Assembly: GCF_019443285.1 (NCBI RefSeq)
Contig: NZ_CP080327.1
Coordinates: 3,096,001 to 3,160,000 of the forward strand
Length of the DNA: 64,000 nt
Reading direction: 5' to 3'
Source: Aquisediminimonas profunda
GTDB lineage: Bacteria; Pseudomonadota; Alphaproteobacteria; Sphingomonadales; Sphingomonadaceae
The translations under genes were made by a program, and so were the position numbers. Positions 442-41,455 of the stretch are shown in pieces (the first letter of the stretch is position 1; each line of letters opens with the position of its first letter). Under the pieces are notes generated by a model. That model saw nothing but the letters and a program-made list of their open reading frames with translations, was not told the DNA's origin and ran no database searches.

Positions 442-1917
442 CTAGCCGGGCATTTTTATGTGTCGTCCCTGCCCTTCGGGCAATCCAAGATGCGCCTGCA
501 AGGCCATCAGACCCATGGCAGCGACCTGGATTTTCTGCGGCGCAGGCACCGACCGTTCCGATTTGGCATCCACATGCAGGAGCATGTGTTCCGCAGTCGC
601 GATCAGAGTATCCTGTTTCAGGCTGAACATTTCATGGAACAGATGCAAGCGCTTGCTGTCCGCGCCAAGGACGCGCGACCGCACTTCGATGGGTTCACCA
701 AGCCGGGCTTGCCCGAGATGCCGGATATGCGTCTCCACAGTGTAGAAACTGTGCCCGCGCGCCACATAGTCGAGTCCGGCGCCAATGCGGCCGAGCACAA
801 CATCGGTCGCATCGCCAAACAGCTTCAGATAGGCGGATTCCGTCAGATGCTCGTTGTAGTCGATCCATTCCGGCTGGACTGGCGTCGCAATGGTCCGCAT
901 CCTGCCTTCCGAGTCAGGCTTGCCGTCAGCCACTGGCTGACCACTAAGCCGCGCACGATGGGCTTTTGCAATCGCCCCGGAAGCAAAATCATTCCGTTCG
1001 AGCGCATGCGTGAGATCGACCAAGCAATTGTCGCGCAACCGTTCATAAGTGCGCAAGTCAACATCGCCTGCCTGCTCGTCTGACTGCCGGGCAATTGTTT
1101 CGACCAGCTCATCGGTCAATTTCGGGCCGACAAGCTTGGTCCATGGCCATTCCATCGACGGGCCAAACTGATGCAGAAAATGCCGCATTCCGGCCTCGCC
1201 GCCAGCAAGCCGGTACGTCAGAAACGTGCCCATGAATGACCAGCGCATGCCGGCTCCAAAGCGGATCGCATCGTCGATTTCCGAGGCTGTGGCGATTCCA
1301 TCATCGATCAGCCAGAGCGCCTCCCGCCAGACAGCCTCCAGCAACCGGTCGGCAATGAAGCCGTCGATTTCCTTTCGGACATGAAGCACCTTCATGCCGA
1401 TCCGTTCGTAAATGGCACTCGCAATATCGATCGTCGCCTGGCTGGTCTGTTCGCCGCCGCAGACCTCGACCAAGGGCAGTAAATAGACAGGATTGAACGG
1501 GTGGCCGACGACGAGCCTGTCAGGTCGCCGCATCTTTGCCTGAAGCCGGGTTGGCAACAAGCCGGATGTAGACGATCCGATCACGGCATGATCGGGCATC
1601 GCTGCATCCATCTCTGCAAGCAGAGTCTGCTTCAGATCTTCCCGTTCCGGCAGGCTTTCCTGGATGAAATCGGCGTCGCGCACCGCTTCGGCCACGCTCG
1701 CCGCAATCGTGACGGACCCTTCCGTCGGAAGAGCCTGTCCAAAAAGCCGCGTGTTTGCGACGCGCGCATTTTCGAGAACCTCGCGAGCCTTTCGCTCGAT
1801 CTCCGGGTCGGGGTCATAGATCGATACGTCAATGCCATTGAGCGCAAAGCGAGCCGCCCATCCGGCCCCAATCACGCCACCACCGACGATGCCAACCTTT
1901 CGAACTTCGCGCATCAT
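442..1917 (-). CDS. lcdH: L-carnitine dehydrogenase fused to betainyl-CoA thioesterase
   Basis: 491 residues. The N-terminal 3-hydroxyacyl-CoA-dehydrogenase-type domain has the NAD loop GGGVIGAG (residues 12-19) and HPFNP (139-143). It would oxidise L-carnitine to 3-dehydrocarnitine. From about residue 338 a hot-dog thioesterase domain follows, with WIDYNEH near 353, which would hydrolyse betainyl-CoA to glycine betaine. The same fusion is known in Sinorhizobium meliloti; in Pseudomonas the activities are separate proteins. The gene starts 10 bp after the BKACE gene, so the enzymes for consecutive steps are co-transcribed. Two adjacent ATGs can serve as the start; AGGAAAG lies upstream. Both domains look intact. 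Confidence 0.92.
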   Translation of the reverse strand: MMREVRKVGIVGGGVIGAGWAARFALNGIDVSIYDPDPEIERKAREVLENARVANTRLFGQALPTEGSVTIAASVAEAVRDADFIQESLPEREDLKQTLLAEMDAAMPDHAVIGSSTSGLLPTRLQAKMRRPDRLVVGHPFNPVYLLPLVEVCGGEQTSQATIDIASAIYERIGMKVLHVRKEIDGFIADRLLEAVWREALWLIDDGIATASEIDDAIRFGAGMRWSFMGTFLTYRLAGGEAGMRHFLHQFGPSMEWPWTKLVGPKLTDELVETIARQSDEQAGDVDLRTYERLRDNCLVDLTHALERNDFASGAIAKAHRARLSGQPVADGKPDSEGRMRTIATPVQPEWIDYNEHLTESAYLKLFGDATDVVLGRIGAGLDYVARGHSFYTVETHIRHLGQARLGEPIEVRSRVLGADSKRLHLFHEMFSLKQDTLIATAEHMLLHVDAKSERSVPAPQKIQVAAMGLMALQAHLGLPEGQGRHIKMPG

Positions 1918-1927
1918 GTTGTCTTTC

Positions 1928-2818
1928 CTATCGCTTGGTCAGTTTAAGCTTGGCGCGAACCTCCTCGGGGCCAAGGATGCGTGCGCCCATGCCCGTGAGA
2001 GTCTGCACCGCGCGCTCGACCAACTGTCCGTTTGACGCGAACTGGCCACGCCCCAAGTACAGATTGTCTTCCAGACCCACGCGCACATTGCCGCCAGCAA
2101 GCGCGGCCATGGCAACAAAGGGCAATTGGTTGCGTCCAATGGAAAAGCCGCTGAAAACAGTGCCTTGTGGCAATTGATGCACCATTGACATGAACGTCAG
2201 CGGATCATCCGGCGCGCCGTAGGGAATGCCCATGCACAATTGGACCATCAACGGATCGTCGATCAGCCCGTCACGAACGAGTTCCTTCACGAAGACAAGA
2301 TGGCCGGTGTCGAAAACTTCAAGTTCGGGCCGAACGCCAAGCCGCTGCACCTCGGCGGCCATTGTGCGCAACATGCCCGGCGTGTTGGTCATCACATAAT
2401 CGGATTCTGCAAAGTTCATCGTTCCGCAGTCGAGCGTGCAGATCTCCGGGAGCAGTTCCTGCACATGGAGAAGCCGCTCCATCGGACCGACCATGTCAGT
2501 GCCGGACGGATCAAGCGGCAGCGGTGCCTCTCCTTGTCCAAAGACAATGTCCCCGCCCATTCCGGCCGTCAGGTTGATCACCACATCGGTATCGCTCGCG
2601 CGAACGCGCTCCACGACCTCACGATACAAGGCGACGTCGCGCGCGCCTTTGCCGGTCGCTGGATCACGCACATGAATGTGGGCGATTGCGGCCCCTGCCC
2701 TTGCCGCCTCAATCGCTGCATTTGCGATCTGTTCCGGAGTAACCGGCAGATCAGGGTGCTTGTCAGCCGTAGCGCCGGAGCCGGTCACAGCGCAGGTAAT
2801 GAAGACCTCAAAATTCAT
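1928..2818 (-). CDS. cdhC: 3-keto-acid cleavage enzyme (BKACE), probable dehydrocarnitine:acetyl-CoA trimethylamine transferase
   Basis: 296 residues of the BKACE (DUF849) family. It has the N-terminal ITCAVTGSG motif, the metal-binding HIHVRDP motif and a conserved [11 protein letters not shown] segment. In carnitine catabolism this enzyme reacts dehydrocarnitine with acetyl-CoA to give betainyl-CoA and acetoacetate, which fits the thioesterase fused to the next gene. The start at 2818 was chosen because GGAGGA sits just upstream and the protein then begins [11 protein letters not shown] like its relatives; the open frame reaches 2884. It is divergent from the GlxA-type regulator. The family assignment is firm; the dehydrocarnitine substrate rests on context. 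Confidence 0.88.
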
Positions 2819-2858
2819 GGCACATCCTCCAAATACGGACAGACTAATCCGCCAAACT

Positions 2859-2879
2859 GCAAAGAAAATATCTCTTTGC
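2859..2879. promoter_or_regulatory. Perfect inverted repeat GCAAAGA-N7-TCTTTGC, candidate CdhR operator
   Basis: Two 7-bp arms separated by 7 bp lie in the 106-bp divergent region between the BKACE gene (start 2818) and the regulator (start 2925). The spacing suits a dimeric regulator bound on one helix face. Binding by the adjacent GlxA/AraC protein is inference. Confidence 0.5.
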
Positions 2880-2896
2880 GTCATTTAGTTGCCTTT

Positions 2897-2913
2897 TGCG
2901 GCATCTTGCCGCA
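2897..2913. promoter_or_regulatory. Stem-loop/inverted repeat TGCGGCA-tct-TGCCGCA upstream of the regulator
   Basis: A perfect 7-bp inverted repeat with a 3-nt loop sits directly before the AGAAGGG ribosome site of the GlxA-type regulator. It could be a second operator (autoregulation) or an mRNA hairpin that limits translation of the regulator. The sequence shows only the symmetry. Confidence 0.4.
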
Positions 2914-2924
2914 GAAGGGCCATA

Positions 2925-3887
2925 ATGCCGCAATCGCTTTCATTCATTCTGCTGCCCGGCTTTTCCGCAATCGCATTCTTTTCCGCGCTCGAGCCATTGC
3001 GCATCGCGAACCGGCTTGCTGGCAAGCAATTATATGCCTGGACCATTCACGCACCTTCCGCAGGCCATGTTACTGCTTCAAACGGCATGCAGCTGCGGAC
3101 AGATCCTGCCAATCCTGACAGGCCGGATGCATTGATCCTGTGTGCCGGCTTCGATCCGCTTGATCACGCGCAACCTGGATTGCTTGCGCTGGTACGACGT
3201 CTGTGGCGTGCTGGGTGCCAGGTCGGTGCAATCGATACGGGCGCATTCCTGCTGGCAGAAGCCGGCATTCTCGGCAGCGATCCGATTACGCTCCATTGGG
3301 AAGCAGCCGATGAGTTTCGCCACCGTTACCCCCATATTCCCGTTTCAGCCGAACTTTACGAACGCCACGCGCGCCTTTTTACCTGCGCCGGCGGTGCCGC
3401 CGCGATGGACATGATGCTGGACAGCATTGCCGCCAATCATGGTTGGACGCTGGCAAACGCCGTTTCGGACCAGCTCATTCACGATCGGATCCGCCCCCCC
3501 TCGGCACGTCAACGCACATCGCTGGCGGAGCAGGTTCAGGGCACTGGCGCGGTCGTCCAACGGCTTGTAGGGGCGATGGAGATCGGGATCACGGCGGGCG
3601 CATCCTTGGAAACCATATTGGAGCTAGAGGGAACAAGTCGCCGCCAGACCGAGCGCCTGTTTCTCAAGCAGACGGGCAGCACGCCGGGAAGATTCTATCG
3701 GGACTTGCGGCTCCGTCATGCCCTGCAGATGATGCGAAGCAGCCGCATGAGCGTGCATGAGGCAGCGATCGCTGCAGGATTTACCTCTCAGCCCGTTTTT
3801 TCGCGCGCATGCAAACAGCACTTCGGCCTGTCCCCGCGTGCTCTGCTGGCTGCGCCGAATCTGCCAGCCGCACTTGGGCACTCATGA
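2925..3887 (+). CDS. cdhR: GlxA/CdhR-type transcriptional regulator (DJ-1/PfpI domain plus AraC helix-turn-helix)
   Basis: 320 residues. The N-terminal half is a DJ-1/PfpI-like sensor domain (FILLPGFSAIAFFSALEPLRIAN; AIDTGAFLLAEAGIL). The C-terminal about 90 residues are an AraC-type double HTH with MSVHEAAIAAGF and FSRACKQHFGLSPR. CdhR, the carnitine-catabolism activator of Pseudomonas, has this architecture, and this gene is divergent from the carnitine genes. The start at 2925 has AGAAGGG upstream; an earlier in-frame start at 2889 would overlap the inverted repeat. The stop overlaps the convergent homocysteine methyltransferase by 6 bp. Confidence 0.82.
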   Translation: MPQSLSFILLPGFSAIAFFSALEPLRIANRLAGKQLYAWTIHAPSAGHVTASNGMQLRTDPANPDRPDALILCAGFDPLDHAQPGLLALVRRLWRAGCQVGAIDTGAFLLAEAGILGSDPITLHWEAADEFRHRYPHIPVSAELYERHARLFTCAGGAAAMDMMLDSIAANHGWTLANAVSDQLIHDRIRPPSARQRTSLAEQVQGTGAVVQRLVGAMEIGITAGASLETILELEGTSRRQTERLFLKQTGSTPGRFYRDLRLRHALQMMRSSRMSVHEAAIAAGFTSQPVFSRACKQHFGLSPRALLAAPNLPAALGHS

Positions 3888-4781
3888 GCGCAGACGCGCA
3901 ATGGCCTCAATATGCTCGGGGCCGATACCGCAGCATCCGCCAATGATGTCAGCACCGGCATCAAGCCAGATCCGGACCCAGTTCAAATAGCCCGCGGGAT
4001 CAAGGTCTTCCCGGATGGGCAGCAGCGTTTCATTGGCCGTCGCTTCCTTGGGCTGCGGCGGAAATGCATTGGCATAAACCCCGATCGGAATTGAGCGGCC
4101 TGCGGCGTCCATTGCGGCCTTTGCCTGTCTCGCCGCCGCTTCCATCACTTCGGGCTGACTGCAATTGAACAGCACTGCAGCCACGCCATGCTCAAGGCAC
4201 AAGGCAACGGCCGCCTCTATGGCCTCACCTGAACGCAGTCGCGCTCTGGCAGCCGCATCGGGGGCGCCGTCTTCAAGCGTGAACGATATCCAGAGCGGCC
4301 GACCATCCTTGGCGAGCATGTTCGCAACCACTTCGGCTTCTTGCGTCGCCGAAAGTGTCTCTGCCAACCAGAGATCGGCATGATCGGACAGCCCTTTCAC
4401 CAGCGGCGCGAGAAGGCGCGAGGCGTCCTCGGCATTGAAAAGGTCCGGACGATAGGAGCCAAAGAGCGGGGGCAGGCTTGCGGCGACCCTGACCGATCTG
4501 CCTGACCTGTTGGCTGCCTGCCGAGCAAGCTTGCCAGCGCGGTCAGCCAGCATTTCGCCATCGCTTTCAAACCGGGCGTCACCAATGTGAAACGGCACCA
4601 GTGCATAACTGTTCGTGGTGATGATATCGGCACCGGCCTTCACATAAGCAGAATGAACGTCCAGCACGAAGGAAGGGGCTTCGATCAAGGCAAGCGCAGA
4701 CCATTCGGGCTGCCGAAATGGTGCCCCCATTCGCTTCAGTTCCCGGCCCATTCCGCCGTCCAGGATGGTCAATGAATTCAT
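3882..4781 (-). CDS. Homocysteine S-methyltransferase family protein
   Basis: 299 residues of the cobalamin-independent homocysteine methyltransferase barrel. The N-terminus LTILDGGMGRELKRMG, the FNCSQPEV motif and the C-terminal IGGCCGIGPEHI (Cys 283/284) supply the three zinc-binding cysteines. The methyl donor could be S-methylmethionine or glycine betaine. Because glycine betaine is the product of the neighbouring carnitine module, a betaine-homocysteine methyltransferase role is attractive, but donor choice cannot be read from sequence. It follows the SDR gene on the same strand with a 22-bp gap. Confidence 0.85.
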   Translation of the reverse strand: MNSLTILDGGMGRELKRMGAPFRQPEWSALALIEAPSFVLDVHSAYVKAGADIITTNSYALVPFHIGDARFESDGEMLADRAGKLARQAANRSGRSVRVAASLPPLFGSYRPDLFNAEDASRLLAPLVKGLSDHADLWLAETLSATQEAEVVANMLAKDGRPLWISFTLEDGAPDAAARARLRSGEAIEAAVALCLEHGVAAVLFNCSQPEVMEAAARQAKAAMDAAGRSIPIGVYANAFPPQPKEATANETLLPIREDLDPAGYLNWVRIWLDAGADIIGGCCGIGPEHIEAIARLRS

Positions 4782-7107: not shown

Positions 7108-9954
7108 CTATTCCGCTGCTTCCGCCAACGCAATGCGCCGGCTCTTTTCAGACCAGCTGGCATAGCTTTCCTGCCAATCTGTCGGGCCATTGGACGGCGA
7201 CACCTGAACAGCTGTCACCTTGTATTCCGGACAGTTGGTTGCCCAATCGGAGAATTCCGTCGTGACGACATTGGCCTGCGTCGCAGGGTGATGGAAGGTT
7301 GTGTAGACAACACCGGGCGCAACGCGATCCGTTACTTCAACGCGGAGTGTCGTTTCACCGGTCCGGCTGGCCAGCCGCGCCCAATCGCCATCCCTCAAGC
7401 CGCGGTTTTCGGCATCCGTCGGGTGCATCTCGAGAACATCCTCATCGTGCCAGACAGTATTGTCGGTACGCCGCGTCTGCGCGCCGACGTTATACTGGGA
7501 GAGGATGCGTCCAGTCGTGAGGAGAAGCGGAAACCGCGGTCCCGTCCGTTCGTCCGTTGGGACATAGTCCGTCACAACGAACTTGCCCTTGCCGCGGACA
7601 AACCCATCGACATGCATGATGGGTGAGCCATCAGGATTGGCCTCATTGACGGGCCATTGAAGCGAGCCGTCCTTTTCAAGTCGATCGAAGGAGACTCCGG
7701 CAAAGCTCGGCGTCAGCCTTGAAATTTCGTCCATCACCTCGCTCGGGTGCGCATATGTCCAGCCAAGCCCCATTGCATTGGCCAGAGCTTGCGTCACTTC
7801 CCAATCCCCCATGCCGTTCGCAGGTTCCATGACCTTGCGAATGAGCTGTATGCGCCGTTCTGCATTGGTGAATGTCCCATCCTTTTCAAGGAAGGTCGAT
7901 CCGGGCAGGAAGACATGGGCATAGTTCGCCGTTTCGTTCAGAAACAGGTCGTGGACGATGACCAGTTCCATTGCCTGCAGCCCAGCAGCGACATGATGCG
8001 TATTGGGATCGGACTGCAAGATGTCCTCACCCTGGATGTAGATTGCGCGGAAAGAGCCATCGAGTGCAGCGTCCAACATGTTCGGAATCCGCAGGCCGGG
8101 CTCCGGATCAAGCTTCACGCCCCATTCCCCCTCGAACAGGGATCGGGCTTGCACGTCCGAGATGTGGCGGTAGCCGGAAAGCTCGTGCGGGAAACTCCCC
8201 ATGTCACAGGCGCCCTGCACGTTATTCTGGCCGCGCAACGGATTCACGCCAACACCCCGCCGACCGATATTGCCGGTCACCATCGCCAGATTGGCAATCG
8301 CCATCACGGTCGAGCTGCCCTGACTATGCTCGGTCACGCCCAGGCCATAGTAGATCGCGCCATTGCCTCCGGTGGCATAGAGCCGCGCAGCCTGTCGAAG
8401 ATCGCTCGCCGGAACTCGTGTGACCGCTTCCAGCGTTTCGGGGCTGTGGCGCTCGTCCGCAACAAAGCGTGCCCAATCCTCATATTCCTGCCAATCGCAG
8501 CGTTCGCGAATGAAGGCCTCGTCAGCCAGACCCTCTGTCACAATCACATGCGCCATGGCTGTCAGAACCGCGACATTGGTGCCAGGCTGCAAAGGCAAAT
8601 GGAAGGCGGCCTCGACATGCGGCGAGCGGACGAGGTCGATCCGACGCGGGTCAATCACGATCAGCTTCGCACCCTGGCGCAGGCGGCGCTTCATGCGGCT
8701 GGCAAAGACCGGATGGGCGTCTGTCGGGTTGGCGCCGATGACCAGGATCACGTCGCTGTCCATCACGCTGTCGAAATCCTGGGTGCCGGCGCTGGTGCCG
8801 AACGTCGTCTTGAGGCCGTACCCCGTTGGCGAATGGCAAACCCGCGCGCAGGTATCGACATTGTTGGAGCCGAACCCGGCGCGCACCAGCTTCTGGACCA
8901 GAAACGTCTCTTCATTGGTGCAGCGGCTGGATGTAATCCCGCCCAGCGCCCGCGGCCCATGCTTCGCCTTGATGTCGGCAAGCCTGCTGGCCGTGAAGGA
9001 CAAAGCCTCATCCCAACTGACAACGCGCCAGGGGTCCTGCACGCTGTCGCGGATCATGGGATCCAGAATGCGATCCTTGTGGTTTGCATAGCCCCAGGCA
9101 AAACGGCCCTTGACGCAGGAATGGCCGCGATTGGCCTTGCCGTCCTTCCACGGGACCATGCGTACAAGCTGCTCGCCACGCATCTCGGCGCGGAAGGTGC
9201 AGCCGACACCACAATAGGCACAGGTTGTAATCACTGCGCGCTCGGGCTTGCCGATTTCCTTGACGGCCTTTTCCTGCAACGTCGCCGTCGGGCAGGCCTG
9301 GACACAGGCGCCACAGCTTACGCATTCCGAAGACAGGAAATTGTCGCCGGCCTGTCCCGCACTGATCTTGCTGGCAAATCCGCGCCCGTCCATCGTCAGC
9401 GCGAATGTTCCCTGCACTTCATCGCATGCGCGCACGCAGCGGGAACAGGCAATGCACTTCGACGGATCAAAATCGAAATAGGGATTCGATGTGTCGGCTT
9501 CGAGGCCGAGATGGTTTGCACCCTCATAGCCAAAACGCACATCGCGCAAGCCCACCTCGGCCGCCGTGTCCTGCAATTCGCAGTCATTGTTGGCAGAACA
9601 TGTGAGGCAATCGAGCGGATGATCGGAAATATAGAGTTCCATCACGCCGCGGCGCAGCTTCTGCAGGCGCGGTGTCTGGGTGTGGACAACCATCCCTTCG
9701 GCAACAGGCGTCGTGCAACTGGCGGGCGTCCCGCGCATGCCGTCGACCTCGACAAGGCACATCCGGCAAGACCCGAAGGCCTTGACGTTGTCCGTTGCGC
9801 ACAACTTGGGGATCGAGCCGCCACTCTCGGCAGCAGCGCGCATCACGCTCGTGCCGACGGGCACAGTCACGGCCCGCCCGTCAATCCTGAGCGTTACGAC
9901 GGCGTCTTGGCGGCTTTCCGGCGTACCGAAGTCATTCTGAGGTTCATAGCCCAT
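7108..9954 (-). CDS. fdsA: NAD-dependent formate dehydrogenase, catalytic alpha subunit (molybdopterin, Fe-S)
   Basis: 948 residues. It oxidises formate to CO2 in the cytoplasm and passes electrons to FdsB. From the N-terminus: a [2Fe-2S] domain (CATDNVKAFGSCRMC), a His/Cys cluster site (HPLDCLTCSANNDC), two ferredoxin-type [4Fe-4S] motifs (CIACSRCVRAC and CVSCGACVQAC), a further [4Fe-4S] motif CAYCGVGC, and the bis-MGD domain. The molybdenum ligand is the Cys in RVCHSPTGYG, so this is not a selenoprotein. The start at 9954 has GGAGACA upstream and overlaps the fdhD stop; the frame continues to 10053 but with no family similarity. Confidence 0.95.
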   Translation of the reverse strand: MGYEPQNDFGTPESRQDAVVTLRIDGRAVTVPVGTSVMRAAAESGGSIPKLCATDNVKAFGSCRMCLVEVDGMRGTPASCTTPVAEGMVVHTQTPRLQKLRRGVMELYISDHPLDCLTCSANNDCELQDTAAEVGLRDVRFGYEGANHLGLEADTSNPYFDFDPSKCIACSRCVRACDEVQGTFALTMDGRGFASKISAGQAGDNFLSSECVSCGACVQACPTATLQEKAVKEIGKPERAVITTCAYCGVGCTFRAEMRGEQLVRMVPWKDGKANRGHSCVKGRFAWGYANHKDRILDPMIRDSVQDPWRVVSWDEALSFTASRLADIKAKHGPRALGGITSSRCTNEETFLVQKLVRAGFGSNNVDTCARVCHSPTGYGLKTTFGTSAGTQDFDSVMDSDVILVIGANPTDAHPVFASRMKRRLRQGAKLIVIDPRRIDLVRSPHVEAAFHLPLQPGTNVAVLTAMAHVIVTEGLADEAFIRERCDWQEYEDWARFVADERHSPETLEAVTRVPASDLRQAARLYATGGNGAIYYGLGVTEHSQGSSTVMAIANLAMVTGNIGRRGVGVNPLRGQNNVQGACDMGSFPHELSGYRHISDVQARSLFEGEWGVKLDPEPGLRIPNMLDAALDGSFRAIYIQGEDILQSDPNTHHVAAGLQAMELVIVHDLFLNETANYAHVFLPGSTFLEKDGTFTNAERRIQLIRKVMEPANGMGDWEVTQALANAMGLGWTYAHPSEVMDEISRLTPSFAGVSFDRLEKDGSLQWPVNEANPDGSPIMHVDGFVRGKGKFVVTDYVPTDERTGPRFPLLLTTGRILSQYNVGAQTRRTDNTVWHDEDVLEMHPTDAENRGLRDGDWARLASRTGETTLRVEVTDRVAPGVVYTTFHHPATQANVVTTEFSDWATNCPEYKVTAVQVSPSNGPTDWQESYASWSEKSRRIALAEAAE

Positions 9955-12689: not shown

Positions 12690-12740
12690 GACCAATCCTG
12701 ACCGGTTCATTTTGCGAGGTCAAATCGATTTATGTGAAGC

Positions 12741-24338: not shown

Positions 24339-24348
24339 GGCGCCGTTG

Positions 24349-26643: not shown

Positions 26644-26657
26644 GACTTTCCTGCCTT

Positions 26658-27425: not shown

Positions 27426-27526
27426 TGTGCCTCAGTACTCATAAACCAGTTTCTTTCCGCTGCTTGTTATCTGCGCGCAGGTCATTTCCTGTGCTGCAAT
27501 TCCATGATGCGGCTGTTATCTCAACC

Positions 27527-27579: not shown

Positions 27580-27634
27580 AGGAAGTGGCACATTGCCGCG
27601 GCAGATTGGGCCCGAGCTCTGGGAGGAATGCAAA

Positions 27635-30547: not shown

Positions 30548-30554
30548 CGGCCTG

Positions 30555-31466: not shown

Positions 31467-31559
31467 ATGCTTGCTAATGATCAGCCTCTCGATTTGCTCG
31501 CCTTGCTGCGACGGGGGAGGCTCGCAGCTTTTCAGATGTAGCCATGCAAAAATCATACT

Positions 31560-31579
31560 TGGCTCAATCCTTCGAGCCA
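31560..31579. promoter_or_regulatory. Inverted repeat TGGCTC-N8-GAGCCA between the LysR gene and the Rieske gene
   Basis: Perfect 6-bp arms 8 bp apart, about 35 bp before the Rieske start. Position and symmetry suit a regulator site for the divergent GcvA-like LysR. Binding is inferred. Confidence 0.4.
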
Positions 31580-31613
31580 GTCAAATGTTCAGCAACGCAT
31601 GAAGGACCATGAA

Positions 31614-34080: not shown

Positions 34081-35546
34081 CCGTTACGGCCACGGAACGA
34101 AAAGTCGATCCCCACGCGATCGACGGCAAATTCCCGGCTCCGGAGACACGCTATGACCTTGTTGTCGTCGGCGCAGGCCGCAGTGGCATTGCAGCGGCAC
34201 TGGATGCCGCCCGCTCGGGCCAATCTGTCCTCCTTGTTGATGAAAATCCCGTTCCGGGCGCGCACATCGGCAATGACGTGCCCCTGTGGTTCGGCGGTCG
34301 CGCAACGACAGCGGTGCAGAACAGCGAACGCATGGTCGAGACCCTGTTCATGAATACGCCCGGGCTGGAGGACGCGATTGAGGCTGGCGTCGAACTGCTG
34401 CTCGGCACCTGCGCCTGGGGCGTCTATCGCAATGGCCCGCTGGTCGGCAGCTTGCCGGATCAGGTTGTCGGCCTTGCCGATGGATCGCGGTCGTGGCTGG
34501 TGGGATTCGAGAAACTGGTGCTCGCGACGGGAGCGCGGGACCTGCCAATGGCATTCCCGGGCTGGAACCAGCCGGGCGTCATGGGTGCGGCCGCCCTGCG
34601 CATGCTGCTGACGCGCTATGCCGCCTTTGCGGGCGAGCGGCTGGTGATAGCGGGGTCGCATGATCTTGGGCTGGAAACGGCTCTCCTCGCCCATGAAAAG
34701 GGCCTGACTGTTGCGGCCATTCTTGAAGTGCGGGACACGCCACAAGGCAGTGCCGCACTGATTGCGCAGGCAGACGCTGCGGGCATTCTGATCCGCTGCG
34801 GTGTTCACCCACTTGAAGCAAGCGGCGGACTCGACGGTGTGACGGCGGTGCAACTCTCCGACGGCGAGACACTGGCATGCGATACGATTGTTCTGGCCAT
34901 TGGGCTGGTGCCGATGATCGAGCTTCAGGACGCCGTCGGCGCTGCGCGGACCTATGATCCGAGGCGGGGGGGCCACATTGCGTTGGGCGACGGCGCAATC
35001 TCGGCCATCGGCAAATGCGCTGGCCTCGAGGATACGGGCTTCGACCATGCGGCCTATCGCCGCGACTGGCTGGATGCGCTGGGCGGGGCATGCAATGGCG
35101 AAACGATCATCTGCCAGTGCGAAGAGGTTACCCTGTCCGACCTTCTGAACGTGCAGCCGCCGCGCTATCTTGATCGGCCCCCGGCGATGGGCAAACGCTC
35201 GCTCAAGACATTGCTGGCCGACGGTCCCGTCAATCAGGACCAGATCAAGCGGCTGACCCGGGCCGGCATGGGTATCTGTCAGGGTCGGCGCTGCCGCGAT
35301 CAGGTCGCCATGATGCTCGCCTTGGAATCCGGCACCGAACTGGCTGAACTTCCCCTTGCCACGCACCGCGCACCGGTCAGGCCATTGCCACTCAAGATCA
35401 TTGCAGACTGGGATGAAAGCGAAGGCATGCGTTCAGGGTGGGACGTCTGGATGGGAATACCGACGCAATGGGTTCCCTATGCTGACATCGGCACGCCGTT
35501 CGAAGAGGAAAACCGGCGTGTCCTTGGCGGGAACATGAAACTGTGA
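34077..35546 (+). CDS. FAD/NAD(P)-binding oxidoreductase with BFD-type [2Fe-2S] domain (opine/hydroxyproline dehydrogenase alpha-like)
   Basis: 489 residues. N-terminal FAD motif VVVGAGRSGIAAALDAARSG, a second nucleotide-binding region near 190, and a BFD-like [2Fe-2S] site with CQCEEVTLSDLL and ICQGRRC near residues 345-405. This matches alpha subunits of multi-subunit imino-acid or opine dehydrogenases (OoxA, HcnB). With the next gene it forms an alpha-beta pair but the usual small ferredoxin-like gamma subunit is not found. Possible roles are demethylation or oxidation of an N-methylated amino acid. Start and stop overlap both neighbours. Confidence 0.84.
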   Translation: MTVTATERKVDPHAIDGKFPAPETRYDLVVVGAGRSGIAAALDAARSGQSVLLVDENPVPGAHIGNDVPLWFGGRATTAVQNSERMVETLFMNTPGLEDAIEAGVELLLGTCAWGVYRNGPLVGSLPDQVVGLADGSRSWLVGFEKLVLATGARDLPMAFPGWNQPGVMGAAALRMLLTRYAAFAGERLVIAGSHDLGLETALLAHEKGLTVAAILEVRDTPQGSAALIAQADAAGILIRCGVHPLEASGGLDGVTAVQLSDGETLACDTIVLAIGLVPMIELQDAVGAARTYDPRRGGHIALGDGAISAIGKCAGLEDTGFDHAAYRRDWLDALGGACNGETIICQCEEVTLSDLLNVQPPRYLDRPPAMGKRSLKTLLADGPVNQDQIKRLTRAGMGICQGRRCRDQVAMMLALESGTELAELPLATHRAPVRPLPLKIIADWDESEGMRSGWDVWMGIPTQWVPYADIGTPFEEENRRVLGGNMKL

Positions 35547-36667
35547 GCGCGCAGCGGGTCGTCATCGTCGGTGGCGGGGTCACCGGCCTGAGCGCAGCCT
35601 GGTGGCTGGCGCGGTCGGGCGTGGACGTGACTGTCCTCGACAAGGGCATTGTCGGCTGGGAAGCGTCCGGTCGTAATGGCGGCGGGTGTTCACATTACCA
35701 GAGCCCGCTTTTTGTCGAAGAACAGCGCCTGTGGCCGCAAATGGACGAACTGCTGGGCTATCCGACGGAGCATTCCAAAGAACGTATCGTCATGGCGGTC
35801 ACGGCGCGGCAGCTTGAGCAGTATCAATACATCGCCGGCATGTGCAATCGGCTGGGATACCGGGTTGACCTGCTGGACGCACAACAGGTGCGTGAAGCCG
35901 TTCCGCTTGCCGGGGACAATTGTGTCGGCGGCATTCACTATCGTTTCGGGGGTCATGCCAACCCCCACCGCACGGTTCAGGCTTATGCCTGGGCCATTCA
36001 GGATCTCGGCGGGCGCATCATCCAGCATGCGCCGGCAACCGGCTTTCGCCGCTCGGGGGGCAAAGTAACGGCAGTCGAAAGTGCCCGGGGCGTTCACGAA
36101 TGTGATGCTGTCGTGATTGCCGCAGGCCCGCAGATGAGCAGCCTTCTTGCGAAGCTGGACATTGCAATGCCGCTCGCTGCCGCCCGCGCGGAAATGATCG
36201 TCACCGAACCTGCGCCGATGATGAAACTGGGCGGAGTTGACGGCAATGGACTCTATGGTCGGCAGACGCTGCGCGGCAATCTGGCCTATGGTGGCGGCCC
36301 GCACGAGTGGGTCGAATTTGGCGAAACCGGGCCGCATGCCCGTCCCTCCACGCCGCTTGCGCGCAACCTTTCCCGCAGGCTTGCAGAACTGTTCCCGAAT
36401 GCCAGCCATCTGAACGTGATCCGGTCATGGGCCGGTGTGATCGAGATGACGCCGGATGGAAGGCCGATCCTGGATCGGCGCGAGAACGTGACGATGGCAA
36501 CCATGTCCGGCGTCGGATTCGGGCTCTCACCCGCCTCCGGCCATGCCGTGCGGGATCTGGTGATCGACGGCGCATGCAGCTTTACCGACATCGACAAGCT
36601 GGCACTCGACCGCTTTGCCGGCATTGAGCCTGATTGGCGCGAAGCTCGGGGTTGGCTCCCGCTTTGA
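35543..36667 (+). CDS. FAD-dependent amino-acid oxidoreductase (DAO/DadA-type, beta-like)
   Basis: 374 residues starting at GTG 35543, which overlaps the previous stop (GTGA). FAD motif VVIVGGGVTGLSAAWWLARSG and the covalent-flavin-region-like SGRNGGGCSHYQ are present, with the C-terminal DGRPILD...GFGLSPASGHAV typical of DAO-family enzymes. It probably oxidises a secondary or tertiary amine such as dimethylglycine, sarcosine or an imino acid, together with the preceding subunit. It shares one base with the soxB start. Confidence 0.86.
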   Translation: MSAQRVVIVGGGVTGLSAAWWLARSGVDVTVLDKGIVGWEASGRNGGGCSHYQSPLFVEEQRLWPQMDELLGYPTEHSKERIVMAVTARQLEQYQYIAGMCNRLGYRVDLLDAQQVREAVPLAGDNCVGGIHYRFGGHANPHRTVQAYAWAIQDLGGRIIQHAPATGFRRSGGKVTAVESARGVHECDAVVIAAGPQMSSLLAKLDIAMPLAAARAEMIVTEPAPMMKLGGVDGNGLYGRQTLRGNLAYGGGPHEWVEFGETGPHARPSTPLARNLSRRLAELFPNASHLNVIRSWAGVIEMTPDGRPILDRRENVTMATMSGVGFGLSPASGHAVRDLVIDGACSFTDIDKLALDRFAGIEPDWREARGWLPL

Positions 36668-37923
36668 TGGGGCGCTATTCGGCCTTCAGCCTGTTGCGCG
36701 GTGCGTTCAATGGTCAAAGCCATTGGCAGCCAGCCTGGCGTGACCCGGAACCGAAGAAGACCTATGACATCATCGTGATCGGCGGCGGCGGTCATGGTCT
36801 TGCAACTGCCTATTACCTTGCGACCGTGCATGGCCTGCGCAACGTCGCCGTTCTTGAAAAGGGCTATATCGGCGGCGGCAATACCGGCCGCAACACCACG
36901 CTCGTCCGCTCGAACTATCGGCTGAAACCGCTGCACGACTTTTTCGAATTCGGCCTGAAGATGTGGGAGCATCTTTCGGACGAACTCAATTACAATGTGA
37001 TGTTCAGCCCCCGGGGGGCCATGTTCCTGGGCCATTCCGATTCCGACATGATCAGGCTTGCGGAGCGCGGCGATGCGATGCGTTGCAGCGGGATCGATGC
37101 CGAACTGCTGACGCGCGATCAGGTCGCAAAGATCGAGCCCTTGCTCGACATGTCTCGTGATGCACGCTTTCCGATTGTCGGCGGACTGACCCAGCGACGG
37201 GGCGGCACAGCCCGCCACGATGCGGTTGCCTGGGGCTATGCCCGCGGCGCCGACAGACAAGGTGTGGACATTATCCAGAAGTGCCAGGTCACAGGCTTCA
37301 TCCGTCAGGGCGATGCGGTCATTGGCGTCGAAACAACGCGCGGGCCCATCGGCGCAGGGCGCGTCGGCATCTGCGTTGCCGGGCACAGCGGCCATGTCGC
37401 GGCCATGGCAGGCCTGAAGCTGCCCATTGAATCCCAGACGCTGCAAGCGCTCGTCACCGAAGGCGTGAAGCCCATGGTCCAGAGCGTCGTCATGTCCCAG
37501 TCGCTCCATTGCTACATCAGCCAGTCGGACAAAGGCGGCATCGTTATGGGCGGCGATCCAGACAATTGGCCCAGCTACGCCCAGCGTGGCAACCCGATGA
37601 TTACCGAGGGTGCGATTGCGCAGGCCATTGCATTGATTCCCGCACTGTCGCGCCTGCGCATGCTGCGCACATGGTCCGGTGTCACGGACATGAGCTTCGA
37701 TGGCTCCCCGATCATCGGGAAAACGCCCGTGCCCAACCTCTTTCTGAACGGCGGCTGGTGCTATGGCGGGTTCAAGGGAACGCCTGCATCGGGATACACC
37801 TTTGCGCATACGCTGGCAGAAGGTGAGCCGCATCCCCTGAATGCGCCGTTCGATCTCGACCGCTTCCGGCGTGGCGACACGATCGACGAAAATGGGGTCG
37901 GCCCGATGCCGAACCATCGATAG
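36667..37923 (+). CDS. soxB: Sarcosine oxidase beta subunit
   Basis: 418 residues, normal length. The N-terminus MGRYSAFSLLRGAFNG...HWQPAWRDPEPKKTYDIIVIGGGGHGLATAYYLA and the GGGNTGRNTTLVRSNY segment are diagnostic of heterotetrameric sarcosine oxidase SoxB, which carries FAD and covalent FMN. It oxidises sarcosine to glycine, passing the methyl to tetrahydrofolate or releasing formaldehyde. The start shares its A with the previous stop (TGATG). Confidence 0.95.
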   Translation: MGRYSAFSLLRGAFNGQSHWQPAWRDPEPKKTYDIIVIGGGGHGLATAYYLATVHGLRNVAVLEKGYIGGGNTGRNTTLVRSNYRLKPLHDFFEFGLKMWEHLSDELNYNVMFSPRGAMFLGHSDSDMIRLAERGDAMRCSGIDAELLTRDQVAKIEPLLDMSRDARFPIVGGLTQRRGGTARHDAVAWGYARGADRQGVDIIQKCQVTGFIRQGDAVIGVETTRGPIGAGRVGICVAGHSGHVAAMAGLKLPIESQTLQALVTEGVKPMVQSVVMSQSLHCYISQSDKGGIVMGGDPDNWPSYAQRGNPMITEGAIAQAIALIPALSRLRMLRTWSGVTDMSFDGSPIIGKTPVPNLFLNGGWCYGGFKGTPASGYTFAHTLAEGEPHPLNAPFDLDRFRRGDTIDENGVGPMPNHR

Positions 37924-37936
37924 GGGGACAGCAGAG

Positions 37937-38200
37937 ATGATGCTCATCCCCTGCCCGCACTGTGGCCCCCGCGCTCAGGCCGAGTTTGTGTATGAACGCA
38001 CGCTCGATTCCGTCGTGGCCCTAGATGCCGGGGCGGACGATGCGATGAACAGCCTTTTCACCCGTACAAATCCGCGCGGCGTGGATGAAGAACTCTGGCG
38101 CCACACCTATGGCTGCCGGGCGTGGATGGCTGTGCGCCGTCACCGGGTTACGCATGAAATCGAGTCGGTTCAGCCGGTCGGGCCGGAAGCCTTGCCATGA
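37937..38200 (+). CDS. soxD: Sarcosine oxidase delta subunit
   Basis: 87 residues beginning MMLIPCPHCGPRAQAEF. The CPHCG zinc site and the downstream WRHTYGCRAWM motif match SoxD. It starts 14 bp after soxB and its end overlaps soxA (ATGA). The second ATG at 37940 is an alternative start. Confidence 0.93.
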   Translation: MMLIPCPHCGPRAQAEFVYERTLDSVVALDAGADDAMNSLFTRTNPRGVDEELWRHTYGCRAWMAVRRHRVTHEIESVQPVGPEALP

Positions 38201-40977
38201 CCGGGCCTTCGCGTTCGCCAGATGGCGCGACGATCAACTTCACATTCGACGGACGGCCCCTGAAGGCGCGGGCCGGCGACACTCTGGCCGCTGCATTGCT
38301 TGCGAACGGCATTGGCCTTGTTGGCCGCAGCTTCAAATATCATCGCCCCCGCGGCATCATGACAGCGGGCATTGAGGAGCCCAATGCCCTTGTCACTGTC
38401 GGCGAAGGCGGGCGGGCAGAACCCAACACGCGGGCAACTGATGTGTTTGTCTATGAAGGTCTGGTCGCCCGCAGCCAGAACCGCTGGCCATCGCTGAGCT
38501 TTGATCTGGGCGCCGTCTTCGGATTGTTTTCCAAGGCGTTGCCCGCTGGTTTCTACTACAAGACCTTCTTTGGTCCGGCAAAGCTCTGGCTGGTCTATGA
38601 ATGGTTCATCCGCAGGGCCGCCGGGCTCGGGAACGCGCCACAGGAAGCGGATCCCGATCGCTACTCCCAGCGAGCGGCCTTTTGCGATGTGCTGGTTGTG
38701 GGCGGCGGTCCGGCCGGGCTGCAGGCAGCGGTGGATGCGGCTGACGCGGGCAAGCGCGTCATTCTGGTTGAGCAGGATGCAGAGCTTGGCGGCTCCCTGC
38801 TGCGCGACCCGCACGATCTGGGGCCGGACTGGACCTCAACCATGGCCGCGCGCATTCGTGATGCCGGCGGGACGATCCTCATGCGGACGACGGCATCAGG
38901 CTATTGGGAACATGACCTCGTTACCCTCGTGCAGCGGATCACGGAGCCGGGTCAGGTGCCGACCGACGGAACTGCACAGCGCCTTTGGCATGTGCGCGCA
39001 GGCAAGGTCATCCTCGCGACCGGCTGCATCGAGCGCCCGATTGCCTTTGCCCATAATGATCGCCCCGGCGTGATGCTGTCACAGGCGGTGCGGACCTATG
39101 TCCGCCGCTTTGGCGTCCTGCCCGGCAAGCGCGTTGTCATCGCGACAAACAATGACGACGCCTATCTGACGGCACAGACCCTGAGCGATGCCGGAGCAGA
39201 GGTCGTTGCGATACTCGATGCCCGCAGCGCGCTCAGCGCCACTGCATCGGAGGCCCAGGGCCGATTCACGGTGCACACCAATGCCGTGCCCAAGGCAGCA
39301 ACAGGCGGCATGCACCAGCTCAAGTCCGTGAAGGCCACAGTGTCGGCGCAAGATGTGTCCTATGATGCAGACCTTCTTGCTGTTTCGGGCGGCTTCACGC
39401 CCGTCACGCATCTTCACATGCAAGCTGGCGGCACGCTGGACTTTTCGGACGAGGCACAGGCCTTTGTCGCCGCGGAATGCCGGCAGAATGTCGAAACCAT
39501 CGGCTCTGCCGCCAACCCGCCCGCGGCCTTGCCGCTCGCGCTGCATGGCGATCCCAAGACAAGCTTCGTCGATTTCCAGAATGATGTGAGCATTGCCGAT
39601 ATCGATCTGGCATGGGCCGAGGGATACCGGTCCGTCGAACATCTGAAGCGCTATACCACGCTCGGCATGGCGACCGATCAGGGCAAGACAAGCAACATGG
39701 CCGCCCTGGCCCGGCTTGCGGAGCGGCAGCATGCGTCAATCCCGGACGCGGGCCTGACGACCTTCCGCCCACCCTATACGCCCGTCACCATGGGCCTGCT
39801 CGCCGGGCGCAATCATCGCGATGCCGGGGCGCATGTGCGCAGGCTCGCGCTCTGGAACCAACATCAGGCCGCAAAGCCGATCTGGCAGCCTGCCGGATAC
39901 TGGATGCGTCCCCGCGCCTTTCCACGAAATGGCGAGGATCTCGCGACGTCGGCCCGACGGGAAGCGCAGACAGTGCGCAGCGCGGTCGGGATGACGGACG
40001 TCTCCTCCCTCGCAAAATTCGAGGTCAGTGGCCCCGATGCGGCAAAATTTCTGGAGATGATCTGCGCAACCAGTGTTGCAAAGCTTGCCATTGGCCGCGG
40101 TCGTTATACCTTCATGCTCCGCGAAGACGGTCTGGTCTTCGATGATGGCACAGTCTGGCGGCTGGACGAAAACCGCTATCTCCTGACCAGTTCAACGGGC
40201 GGTGCGGATCGGATGGCGACGCACATTTCCTATGTCCGGCAGGTCTTGCATCCGGAGTTGCGCGTTTCTGCCGTCAATGTGCAGGAACATTATGCCGGGA
40301 TCGCTGTCGCGGGCCCGCTGGCGAAAGCTGCCCTGTCGGCAATGATCGGCACCGAACCGCCCCGCCACATGTCCCTGGCATCCGCCACCTTGGCGGGCGT
40401 GCCTGTCCTCCTCCTTGGGGCAAGCTACAGCGGGGAACGCGCTTTTGAAATCTATGTCGAAGCAACGCATGGCGCGCCCGTGTGGGCGGCATGCGAAACC
40501 GCATTGGCCGAACGCGGCGGCTGCACCTACGGCCTCGAAGCGATGGAAATTCTGCGCATTGAAAAGGGACACGTCGTGGTCAGCGGTGAAGTGGACGGCC
40601 GCCTGAGCCCCCATGATCTTGGACTTGCCGGCATGCTCAACAAGGCTGGCGGATATGTGGGAGAGGCAGGACTGTCCCGGCCCGCACTTGCAGCACCCGG
40701 CCGCCTGCAGCTGGTTGGGCTGGAATCGCTGGGCGGGCCAATCCCCGAAGGTTCAATGCTCACCCTGGAAAAGGGTGTCGGCGCTCAAGGCCATGTGACG
40801 GCGGCCGCCTATCGCGTCATGTCGGGCGATCCGATCGCGCTGGCCTTGCTCACAGACGGACGGTCACGCACAGGCGAGGAACTCATCGCCTCATCGCCCA
40901 CACGGAATCAATATGTGCGCGTGCGCGTCACGGCGCCCCATTTCTATGATCCTGCCGGGGAACGCTATCGTGATTGA
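38197..40977 (+). CDS. soxA: Sarcosine oxidase alpha subunit
   Basis: 926 residues, slightly short for the family. Order: N-terminal ferredoxin-like domain (residues 1-110), NAD-binding domain with VLVVGGGPAGLQAAVDAADAG (from about 165) and a second motif near 300, then a GcvT-like tetrahydrofolate-binding aminomethyltransferase domain from about residue 560 (GMTDVSSLAKFEVSGPDAAKFLE). It forms the tetrahydrofolate side of the enzyme, making 5,10-methylene-THF. It overlaps both soxD and soxG. Confidence 0.95.
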   Translation: MTGPSRSPDGATINFTFDGRPLKARAGDTLAAALLANGIGLVGRSFKYHRPRGIMTAGIEEPNALVTVGEGGRAEPNTRATDVFVYEGLVARSQNRWPSLSFDLGAVFGLFSKALPAGFYYKTFFGPAKLWLVYEWFIRRAAGLGNAPQEADPDRYSQRAAFCDVLVVGGGPAGLQAAVDAADAGKRVILVEQDAELGGSLLRDPHDLGPDWTSTMAARIRDAGGTILMRTTASGYWEHDLVTLVQRITEPGQVPTDGTAQRLWHVRAGKVILATGCIERPIAFAHNDRPGVMLSQAVRTYVRRFGVLPGKRVVIATNNDDAYLTAQTLSDAGAEVVAILDARSALSATASEAQGRFTVHTNAVPKAATGGMHQLKSVKATVSAQDVSYDADLLAVSGGFTPVTHLHMQAGGTLDFSDEAQAFVAAECRQNVETIGSAANPPAALPLALHGDPKTSFVDFQNDVSIADIDLAWAEGYRSVEHLKRYTTLGMATDQGKTSNMAALARLAERQHASIPDAGLTTFRPPYTPVTMGLLAGRNHRDAGAHVRRLALWNQHQAAKPIWQPAGYWMRPRAFPRNGEDLATSARREAQTVRSAVGMTDVSSLAKFEVSGPDAAKFLEMICATSVAKLAIGRGRYTFMLREDGLVFDDGTVWRLDENRYLLTSSTGGADRMATHISYVRQVLHPELRVSAVNVQEHYAGIAVAGPLAKAALSAMIGTEPPRHMSLASATLAGVPVLLLGASYSGERAFEIYVEATHGAPVWAACETALAERGGCTYGLEAMEILRIEKGHVVVSGEVDGRLSPHDLGLAGMLNKAGGYVGEAGLSRPALAAPGRLQLVGLESLGGPIPEGSMLTLEKGVGAQGHVTAAAYRVMSGDPIALALLTDGRSRTGEELIASSPTRNQYVRVRVTAPHFYDPAGERYRD

Positions 40978-41455
40978 CGTGACGATCTCCACCCTCCCCC
41001 CTGCCCCGCTCCATGCCCTTGAAATCTGGAGCAATGCGCAGGCCGTGGCCAAGCGATTTCAAAAGGCGGCTGGCTTCGACTTGCCGCCCATGGGTCAATC
41101 AGCAGGCAATGCGGCAATTCAGCTCATCCGTTTTGAACCAACCGTCTGGCTGGTCGAGGGAGATGTGACGGGGCTTGAGTCTGTCCTTGGCGACGATGGG
41201 GCGCTGACCGCGATCGGGGGTGGCATCGTCCGCGTTGCCATGTCTGGCGCGGGCTGGCGCCGTCTGCTGATGGAAGGCGGCGTCTTCGATGCCGAAGATC
41301 CGGCATTCGGACCCGGACGCAGCGCGGCAACGATCATCGATCATGTGAATGTCCGTCTGCATGTGACGGGCGAAGCTCAGTGCACTGCCTATGTGCCGTC
41401 CAGTTACGCGCATGACCTGATCGAATTCTGGAACGCTGCGACCAGCCTGGCGTGA
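40970..41455 (+). CDS. soxG: Sarcosine oxidase gamma subunit
   Basis: 161 residues from GTG 40970, chosen because GGGGAA sits 7 bp upstream and the short overlap with soxA is typical; the open frame extends into soxA. The C-terminal half (RVAMSGAGWRRLLMEGGVFD...ATIIDHVNVRLH...SSYAHDLIEFWNAA) matches the SoxG fold. It completes soxBDAG and is convergent with the amidase gene 3 bp downstream. Confidence 0.88.
   Translation: MIDVTISTLPPAPLHALEIWSNAQAVAKRFQKAAGFDLPPMGQSAGNAAIQLIRFEPTVWLVEGDVTGLESVLGDDGALTAIGGGIVRVAMSGAGWRRLLMEGGVFDAEDPAFGPGRSAATIIDHVNVRLHVTGEAQCTAYVPSSYAHDLIEFWNAATSLA

Follow-up and report, generated by a model that had tools for sequence, protein, structure and literature searches.

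A conserved operon pairing a Rieske oxygenase with a PLP enzyme in Aquisediminimonas profunda, a candidate for a betaine pathway other than the glycine betaine route

Does one region of the Aquisediminimonas profunda genome encode a single route from carnitine to glycine, or do the genes that suggest such a route belong to separate systems? The question was raised by an earlier note on a stretch of 64,000 nucleotides (hereafter, the window; positions 3,096,001-3,160,000 of contig NZ_CP080327.1, in a 3.41-Mb single-contig genome), in which several operons were proposed to convert gamma-butyrobetaine and carnitine to glycine and CO2. The genes of the window were mapped by scans with protein family models. 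All the genes named previously are present, at or near the positions assigned to them, but a single carnitine-to-glycine route is not borne out; the carnitine module and the operon of the Rieske oxygenase are separable. The window appears to contain three separable things, namely, an accessory carnitine module (442-3887), a one-carbon (C1) sink in the form of a formate dehydrogenase, and a conserved catabolic cluster at about 18.8-41.5 kb. We are somewhat more inclined to accept than to doubt that this cluster encodes a distinct betaine/N-methyl (quaternary-amine) pathway, other than the glycine betaine route.

Gene content of the operon

The eight genes from the Rieske oxygenase gene through soxG most likely form one operon because they lie on one strand, overlap or nearly touch, and diverge from the gene of a GcvA-like LysR regulator (30555-31556, minus strand). 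In order, all on the plus strand, the predicted products are a Group V-type (quaternary-amine type) Rieske oxygenase (31599-32828), assigned from family and domain scans; a cystathionine-gamma-synthase-family pyridoxal phosphate (PLP) enzyme (hereafter, CGS; 32809-34080, with a conserved Met at 32821 as the likelier start); an FAD/NAD(P) subunit with Pyr_redox_2 and SO_alpha_A3 domains and a CxC...Cx4C pattern (34077-35546; cysteines 346, 348, 401 and 406); a DAO-family amine dehydrogenase subunit (35543-36667; PF01266, 219 bits); and SoxBDAG-type subunits. The two flavoprotein subunits are denoted HcnB-like and HcnC-like. No standalone gene for a small Fer2_4 subunit of the HcnABC type was found; the four Fer2_4 matches in the genome are fdhA, two soxA genes and one 721-aa frame.

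The previous assignment of soxBDAG to 36667-41455 stands with respect to the four genes and their order, but only soxB (36634-37923; TIGR01373, 655 bits) exceeds its model cut-off (529), whereas soxA (38197-40977; TIGR01372, 1018 bits) and soxG (40913-41455; TIGR01375, 44 bits) fall below theirs (1164 and 144, respectively). The soxD-type small subunit (about 37940-38200) is assigned by its open reading frame and start, its position, and the relatives in place in other loci. The low soxA score is compatible with another N-methyl substrate, without proving one. The three genes that separate the Rieske gene from soxB, encoding CGS and the HcnB-like and HcnC-like subunits, had been overlooked, as had the MFS-ALDH-enolase-GMC and HIBADH-SDR blocks at 18811-27425 (see below). 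A scan of 30400-41600 for promoters and terminators gave counts exceeding those in shuffled sequences for neither (1 against a mean of 2.4, and 10 against a mean of 8.6).

CGS scores 514 bits against NF005455 (PRK07049 family; cut-off 504), and gamma-elimination on an O- or S-substituted homoserine is the proposed activity, given the enzyme family. Its nearest solved chains, 5ijg and 7swh, are titled merely as family members, and methionine gamma-lyase activity was not assigned. The protein carries IYGG at residues 127-130, where methionine gamma-lyases have a Cys. Canavanine gamma-lyase was another candidate, but nothing ties canavanine to the Rieske or sox genes, and the term was absent from the papers listed in one literature search.

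The Rieske oxygenase and its electron donors

Residues 207-211 of the window Rieske oxygenase read ECYHC, a match to the Cys-x-x-Cys pair of Group V Rieske oxygenases. PMC10952381 places this pair beside the mononuclear Fe in CntA and Stc2 and describes it as restricted to some of the Group V enzymes. Because ECYHC fits the pair of CntA and Stc2, the window enzyme is predicted to be of the quaternary-amine type. It had been called GbcA-like (31614); the Rieske oxygenase part of this assignment stands, whereas the identity as GbcA is unsupported by the score, 436.7-437.6 bits against model NF058607 with a cut-off of 670. Likewise, none of the scored Rieske proteins of other bacteria reach this cut-off, including those of the Ruegeria TM1040 plasmid (L142, 501.6), a Roseivivax plasmid (L139, 519.6), Azospirillaceae (L121, 445.0), Novosphingobium capsulatum (L138, 439.9) and Mesorhizobium (L140, 375.9); here and below, loci and genomes are cited by labels beginning with L and G, respectively.

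The absence of a Rieske reductase, pointed out previously for the window, extends to the whole genome for the FNR (GbcB/CntB) type: there is no genome-wide match to PF00970 (FAD_binding_6) at E<=0.001, compared with matches in 8 of 14 controls. A Reductase_C domain is encoded by two genes elsewhere in the genome. At the same E-value threshold, the genome contains 12 matches to the GbcA-type Rieske model, with the window protein scoring highest (437 bits against 405 for the next). Given the 12 matches, the lack of FAD_binding_6 and the two Reductase_C reductases, the Rieske enzymes of this genome probably share general electron donors. Three relatives on plasmids (Roseivivax, Mesorhizobium and Ruegeria) have a reductase gene next after the Rieske gene, the place that CGS occupies in the window operon.

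The nearest solved relatives of the window Rieske protein include 3vca and 4qup, which we take to be Stc2 chains. The pSymA protein of Sinorhizobium meliloti (L141) contains a peptide of chain 3vca and is about 45% identical to the window protein. A tree of 21 rows was built, including one very long row, and its deep forks are weak. The four Rieske proteins of sphingomonad operons form one clade (100/100), with the TM1040/S. meliloti pair and the Rieske proteins of a second locus (see below) outside it. A wider group of 11 rows, which takes in Mesorhizobium L140 as well as proteins from Caulobacterales, N. capsulatum, Azospirillaceae and Pseudoxanthobacter, has weak support (84/89).

Conservation of the operon

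We assessed conservation in two samples, 296 Sphingomonadales genomes, that of A. profunda included, and 65 loci obtained by scanning genome contigs with a CGS alignment. A gene was counted as present in the latter if a tblastn match of at least 35% identity (40% for soxA) was found within a set distance of CGS. Some of the CGS-anchored loci are the same contigs as those of the same-genus genomes (for example, L083 is G008:C2), and the two counts are not independent.

The Rieske gene is located directly upstream of CGS in 56 of the 65 loci (7 lack it and 2 have no room for it), and hcnB lies downstream in 55 (6 and 4, respectively), followed by hcnC in 53 (5 and 7). A divergent LysR gene is present in 53 loci (6 and 6), and soxB in 42 (13 and 10). 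In the five loci where CGS is at most 47% identical, none of these five genes was found. The operon order is more than chance, as it recurs in dozens of loci. In the same genus, a Rieske orthologue (63-69% identity) was detected in 10 of 12 genomes, and CGS-hcnB-hcnC come next in all 8 that were fetched. Of the operon members, CGS (79-81%) and soxB (81-84%) are kept best within the genus, which argues that CGS is no bystander.

Most of the CGS-anchored loci are from Sphingomonadales, with others from Caulobacterales and beyond. Outside Sphingomonadales, the core was found in Caulobacteraceae/Caulobacterales, in Azospirillaceae (L121) and in records titled Elstera (L117) and Pseudoxanthobacter (L119); among these core loci with room, soxB follows in L121 only. 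Carriers with strain names include Sphingorhabdus species, Chakrabartia godavariana and N. capsulatum, and in the culture-collection strain N. capsulatum HAMBI_0103, the order LysR-Rieske-CGS-FAD-FAD is found on a plasmid. Lakes, ponds or blooms are mentioned in many of the record titles.

A second Rieske and sox locus

The same genome contains another locus of this general kind (L052; G000:C1 3,036,001-3,056,000), with genes at about 3.043-3.052 Mb, some 44-53 kb before the window start. It encodes a Rieske protein matching the GbcA model, an 835-aa protein similar to dimethylglycine dehydrogenase (DMGDH), SoxB, SoxA (1399.7 bits, above the cut-off of 1164) and SoxG. An MttB-family gene and a gene for formate-tetrahydrofolate (THF) ligase flank it on one side, and genes for MhpA-like, FAH and extradiol dioxygenase proteins on the other. 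In the relative G226, a BCCT transporter is encoded near the counterpart of this locus; the ten proteins of L052 that were scanned include none. Because of its DMGDH-like gene and soxA score, the locus is a candidate for glycine betaine catabolism. A DMGDH-like gene thus exists in the same genome outside the window, the dimethylglycine demethylase having been described as missing or unclear.

Taken as a glycine betaine monooxygenase, the window Rieske protein is unsupported, being below the GbcA cut-off and partnered by CGS, HcnB and HcnC; so is the window soxBDAG as the end of a glycine betaine route, with the same operon partners and another locus that combines a DMGDH-like gene with a soxA above its cut-off. 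Glycine betaine becomes a less likely substrate of the window operon in view of the GbcA score, the lack of any PF00970 match, the pairing with CGS and the existence of the second locus.

Proposed pathway and substrate

In the pathway that we propose, the Rieske oxygenase would remove a quaternary N-methyl group from a gamma-substituted alpha-amino-acid betaine, and the HcnBC-type and SoxBDAG-type flavoproteins would remove the tertiary and secondary N-methyls, with the C1 units leaving as formaldehyde or methylene-THF and proceeding through formate to CO2. CGS would cleave the freed amino acid at the gamma carbon, and the GMC, ALDH, enolase-type dehydratase and HIBADH enzymes of the linked block would process the alcohol or polyol part. 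The substrate would need to be an alpha-trimethylammonio betaine with a good gamma leaving group.

A natural betaine that fits this chemistry is glyceryl-N,N,N-trimethylhomoserine, the headgroup of the algal betaine lipid diacylglyceryl-N,N,N-trimethylhomoserine (DGTS). It is our leading guess for the substrate, albeit a speculative one that we would not expect to prove correct. In this version, the headgroup would be taken up and its glycerol end oxidised by GMC, ALDH, enolase and HIBADH; the three demethylations would be carried out by Rieske, HcnBC and SoxBDAG, and CGS, as a gamma-lyase, would split the homoserine ether. The guess is not helped by the lack of any match to PF11899, presumably BtaA, in the A. 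profunda genome (1 of 14 control genomes has a match); synthesis of DGTS by the bacterium itself is unlikely on this result, and the lipid would need to come from outside. Among the top-ranked results in the open-licence literature, no description of a pathway degrading the DGTS headgroup, or of a pathway of this kind, was found.

Several observations weigh against a distinct pathway. The 65 loci were anchored on CGS and are hence blind to Rieske relatives without it, and more distant Rieske matches with no adjoining CGS do occur in G033 (47%) and G095 (40-42%). Conversely, no Rieske gene adjoins CGS in L101 (CGS at 77%), L114 (CGS at 60%) and G194, and none was seen in G230; L114 is devoid of the other core genes, too. 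None of the Caulobacterales-titled loci with room has soxB after hcnC, the operon of the N. capsulatum plasmid has no sox gene listed next to it, and Caulobacterales keep hcnC (65-70%) better than CGS (60-65%). Mesorhizobium L140, for which a reductase but no CGS is listed, falls inside the weakly supported 11-row Rieske group. The second locus may not be a glycine betaine locus either, given its aromatic-degradation neighbours and the low score of its Rieske protein (404-405 bits against the GbcA model, lower than the 437 of the window protein); its soxG, at 92 bits, is also below the cut-off of 144. Because the second-locus Rieske protein is no closer to GbcA, our confidence in a distinct pathway is slightly reduced.

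The linked GMC-enolase block

The enzymes assigned above to the alcohol or polyol part are encoded upstream of the operon. On the plus strand, an MFS transporter of the D-galactonate/anion family (18811-20109; 64-84% identical relatives in the same block) is followed by genes for an aldehyde dehydrogenase (ALDH; 20027-21538; 69-82%), a mandelate-racemase/enolase-type dehydratase (denoted MRenol2; 21535-22725), whose nearest solved chains, 4e5t and 4e4u, are titled only MR/MLE-type, and a choline-dehydrogenase-like GMC alcohol dehydrogenase (22722-24338; NF002550, 548 bits, below the cut-off of 605). The minus strand encodes a beta-hydroxyacid dehydrogenase similar to HIBADH and tartronate-semialdehyde reductase (25690-26661; 77% in Caulobacteraceae/Caulobacterales loci) and an SDR protein (26658-27425). 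A TonB-dependent receptor found by family scan (13950-16661, plus strand) belongs to the block as well, and genomes of the same genus encode 33-82% identical relatives in the corresponding block. A protein with TPR and sulfotransferase domains (16783-18786) is found beside the TonB/MFS block in relatives, its identity being very variable (45-78%).

In the Caulobacteraceae loci L110 and L112, the operon adjoins genes for MRenol2 (82-83%), GMC (74-75%), ALDH (37-38%), HIBADH (77%) and MDR (53-54%). In the order sample, CGS orthologues (at least 68% identity) are present in 9 of the 296 genomes, and MRenol2 orthologues (at least 86%) in 8, all of which have CGS. This co-occurrence is evidence for association and no proof of one pathway. 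It could reflect inheritance of an island because most carriers seen have the blocks in physical linkage, and only 3 genera are represented among the 8 genomes; these circumstances, together with the common use of the MR/enolase, GMC and HIBADH families in sugar-acid metabolism, also count against a single pathway. Co-occurrence on different contigs was dropped as independent evidence: in G182 and G315, the blocks are located at contig ends, and the genes are adjacent in G226.

It is possible, if doubtful, that the GMC-ALDH-enolase-HIBADH-MFS block serves sugar-acid catabolism, is unrelated to the amine operon and merely travels on the same island, which would be compatible with any substrate of the operon. 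The families are typical of sugar-acid use, the linkage is physical in most carriers, with three Rieske/sox-type loci on the island in G002 and G008, and the core occurs with no block in view on the N. capsulatum plasmid and the G230 stretch (G230 has no MRenol2 match). This is countered by adjacency kept across two orders, with GMC, HIBADH and enolase at 72-83% identity.

Between the block and the LysR gene, the plus strand encodes a TauD-family Fe(II)/2-oxoglutarate dioxygenase (27425-28756), a class II aldolase-family protein (28753-29475; NF005689, 351 bits, above 260) and a quinone-oxidoreductase-like MDR protein (29468-30547), also found near the operon LysR gene in Caulobacterales L110, L112, L115 and L116. 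The dioxygenase, previously described as gamma-butyrobetaine dioxygenase (BBOX)-like (27635), is indeed of this kind but falls below the cut-offs of both the BBOX model (TIGR02409, 279.7 bits against 414.75) and the TmpA model (284.1 against 400), and the proposed gamma-butyrobetaine step would depend on it. Its His264 and Asp266 align with positions 202 and 204 of the human enzyme, where Fe ligands lie, and Phe239, Phe243 and Tyr256 with human Tyr177, Trp181 and Tyr194, of the aromatic cage for the trimethylammonium group. A BBOX protein was detected in 2 of the 296 order genomes, the second at 39% identity, and a 34-35% homologue is encoded next to the LysR gene in Caulobacterales L115, L116 and L118. 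In the same-genus genomes G001, G002, G008 and G009, a third Rieske gene (33-34%) is located between MDR and SDR2 genes (for example, L034 13066-19220, G002:C8), together with two genes for DMGDH/GcvT-like proteins of about 815 aa where genes are listed, one of which was scanned; at this site, the window has the BBOX-like and class II aldolase genes next to MDR instead.

The carnitine module and the C1 sink

The carnitine module, canonical-looking and lying outside the conserved cluster, is an accessory one that probably works. It consists of a carnitine 3-dehydrogenase/betainyl-CoA thioesterase fusion of the cdhA-cdhB type (442-1917, minus strand), a BKACE protein (1928-2884, minus strand) and, divergent from both, a GbdR/CdhR-like AraC-family regulator (2889-3887, plus strand; NF052371 GbdR, 245 bits, below the cut-off of 480). 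The fusion, reported earlier, is confirmed by its NF005716 score (660 bits, cut-off 592) and by both domain types (3HCDH_N and 3HCDH; 4HBT_2), and BKACE by PF05853 (329.7 bits, cut-off 24.8); the nearest solved chain of the latter is 3c6c. It would be a cdhC-type dehydrocarnitine cleavage enzyme, a probable role to which the adjoining carnitine dehydrogenase fusion gene is the sole pointer. In the accessible parts of the sources, use of BKACE in carnitine degradation is stated (PMC12482172), and cdhR is placed beside caiX-cdhCAB in Pseudomonas aeruginosa (PMC5806209). A fragment of an NCS1-family transporter gene (2-412), cut by the window edge, lies directly downstream of the carnitine genes and could belong to an uptake system.

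The NAD-type formate dehydrogenase, also named previously, is encoded on the minus strand at 7108-12710, with alpha at 7108-10053 (TIGR01591, 924 bits, above 666), beta, NuoF-like, at 10753-12270, and gamma, PRK05988/NuoE-like, at 12267-12710; beta and gamma are each below their model cut-offs, and the gap between alpha and beta is about 700 bases. Between this block and the carnitine module, a homocysteine S-methyltransferase-family protein is encoded (3882-4781, minus strand; PF02574, 208 bits), possibly a methyl acceptor route for betaines; its relatives (58-60%) lie between fdhB and fdhA in L066, L074, L105, G226 and G182. The gene order in G226 is purU, frmA, fdhG, fdhB, homocysteine methyltransferase-like, fdhA, one further frame and the LysR-Rieske operon. 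Because the fdh genes adjoin purU and frmA there, synteny supports formate dehydrogenase as the C1 sink, with C1 ending as CO2 as suggested earlier. Upstream of the operon, fdhA is present in 25 of the 65 CGS-anchored loci (23 lack it and 17 have no room). In A. profunda itself, frmA, 89% identical to that of a relative over a match in which a stop codon is flagged once, is located at 2.63 Mb, and a gene resembling purU (51%) lies at 0.48 Mb. Formaldehyde oxidation, listed as missing or unclear, is thus present outside the window.

The pathway of the earlier note would run from carnitine or gamma-butyrobetaine to glycine betaine (442-2884) and then to glycine through the Rieske oxygenase, HcnBC in place of DgcAB, and SoxBDAG, with CO2 formed via formate dehydrogenase. 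We judge it unlikely as a whole. Every gene family that it names is present, the Rieske protein is of the quaternary-amine kind by its ECYHC motif and is the highest GbcA scorer of the genome (437 against 405), and G194, the only order genome besides A. profunda (G000) with the carnitine fusion gene (2 of 296 at E<=1e-100), also carries CGS-hcnB-hcnC-sox. However, the Rieske score reaches neither the GbcA cut-off nor the values of L139 and L142, a DMGDH-like gene is found in the second locus, the pathway has no place for CGS, and the carnitine fusion is missing, at the same threshold, from 7 of the 9 order genomes that carry CGS. The steps from carnitine through dehydrocarnitine and betainyl-CoA to glycine betaine at 442-3887 are supported by homology and layout, whereas their continuation through the window Rieske oxygenase and soxBDAG is not.

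Other readings of the operon

Improbable, in our view, is a cyclic or other amino-acid betaine resembling stachydrine, which the Rieske oxygenase would convert to an N-methyl amino acid, with HcnBC and Sox completing the demethylation and CGS catalysing a side reaction. The presumed Stc2 chains 3vca and 4qup are among the nearest solved Rieske relatives, and HcnB/HcnC-type flavoproteins, whose subunits occur in hydroxyproline or opine oxidases, follow the Rieske gene. Against this, few operon members are kept as well in the genus as CGS, and it is not evident what a gamma-acting enzyme would do with a proline betaine; moreover, the window Rieske protein is apart from the S. meliloti/TM1040 pair in the tree, where the deep forks are weak.

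We give just as little credence to CGS being a sink for methionine or homocysteine from the homocysteine methyltransferase (3882-4781) demethylating betaines, with the rest a general methylamine unit, because the core Rieske-HcnBC-CGS occurs without a matched methyltransferase in the non-sphingomonad loci L108-L113, L115-L119 and L121, and IYGG replaces the Cys presumed for methionine gamma-lyases. What speaks for it is that an S-methyl_trans protein is encoded in the window and, in some Sphingorhabdus-type loci, within the fdh block, and that a betaine-homocysteine route is stated for S. meliloti in PMC12093977.

Other genes of the window

Downstream of soxG, a block at 41459-50525 encodes an isochorismatase-like hydrolase, a CaiB-type CoA transferase, hydantoinase B and A, an HMG-CoA-lyase-like protein, a GntR regulator and an Asp/Glu/hydantoin racemase, and resembles a hydantoin or creatinine degradation block. 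A distant Rieske oxygenase (518 aa) is encoded at 53809-55365, among TonB receptors and an SDR protein. Genes for a HupE/UreJ-like membrane protein, a PPIase-like protein and a DUF3604 protein lie in a row at 59376-63166.

Implications and comparison with known systems

Few Group V Rieske oxygenases have solved structures, with two named in the accessible part of PMC10952381. The conserved, LysR-linked operon, which occurs in Sphingomonadales and Caulobacterales, combines an enzyme of this type with both a PLP enzyme and a flavoprotein resembling HcnBC, offers a concrete, testable gene set for a betaine pathway, and cautions against annotating such Rieske and sox genes as glycine betaine catabolism. 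Were the DGTS headgroup the substrate, microbial recycling of a phosphorus-free algal lipid would be opened to genetics.

Compared with HcnABC and with opine and hydroxyproline oxidases, the operon has the HcnB-like subunit with CxC...Cx4C and the HcnC-like DAO subunit but lacks the small Fer2_4 subunit. With the stachydrine demethylase Stc2 of S. meliloti (3vca and 4qup, as presumed above), it shares the kind of Rieske oxygenase, with the Cys-x-x-Cys pair and about 45% identity to the pSymA protein, whereas the tree branch and the partner genes differ. The carnitine module resembles P. aeruginosa cdhR and caiX-cdhCAB-hocS, as described in the accessible part of PMC5806209, in that a GbdR-type AraC regulator gene adjoins genes for the carnitine dehydrogenase, thioesterase and BKACE functions, except that the dehydrogenase and thioesterase are fused in the window. 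With gbcAB-dgcAB-soxBDAG of Pseudomonas and Vibrio natriegens, to the extent covered by the accessible part of PMC12093977, the operon shares a Rieske gene combined with heterotetrameric sarcosine-oxidase-type genes and, judging by purU near fdh in G226, C1 handling through THF and formate. It differs in that its Rieske protein does not reach the GbcA cut-off, a reductase domain of the GbcB type was not detected anywhere in the genome, an HcnBC-type flavoprotein replaces dgcAB, CGS is a partner, and a LysR gene lies beside the operon.

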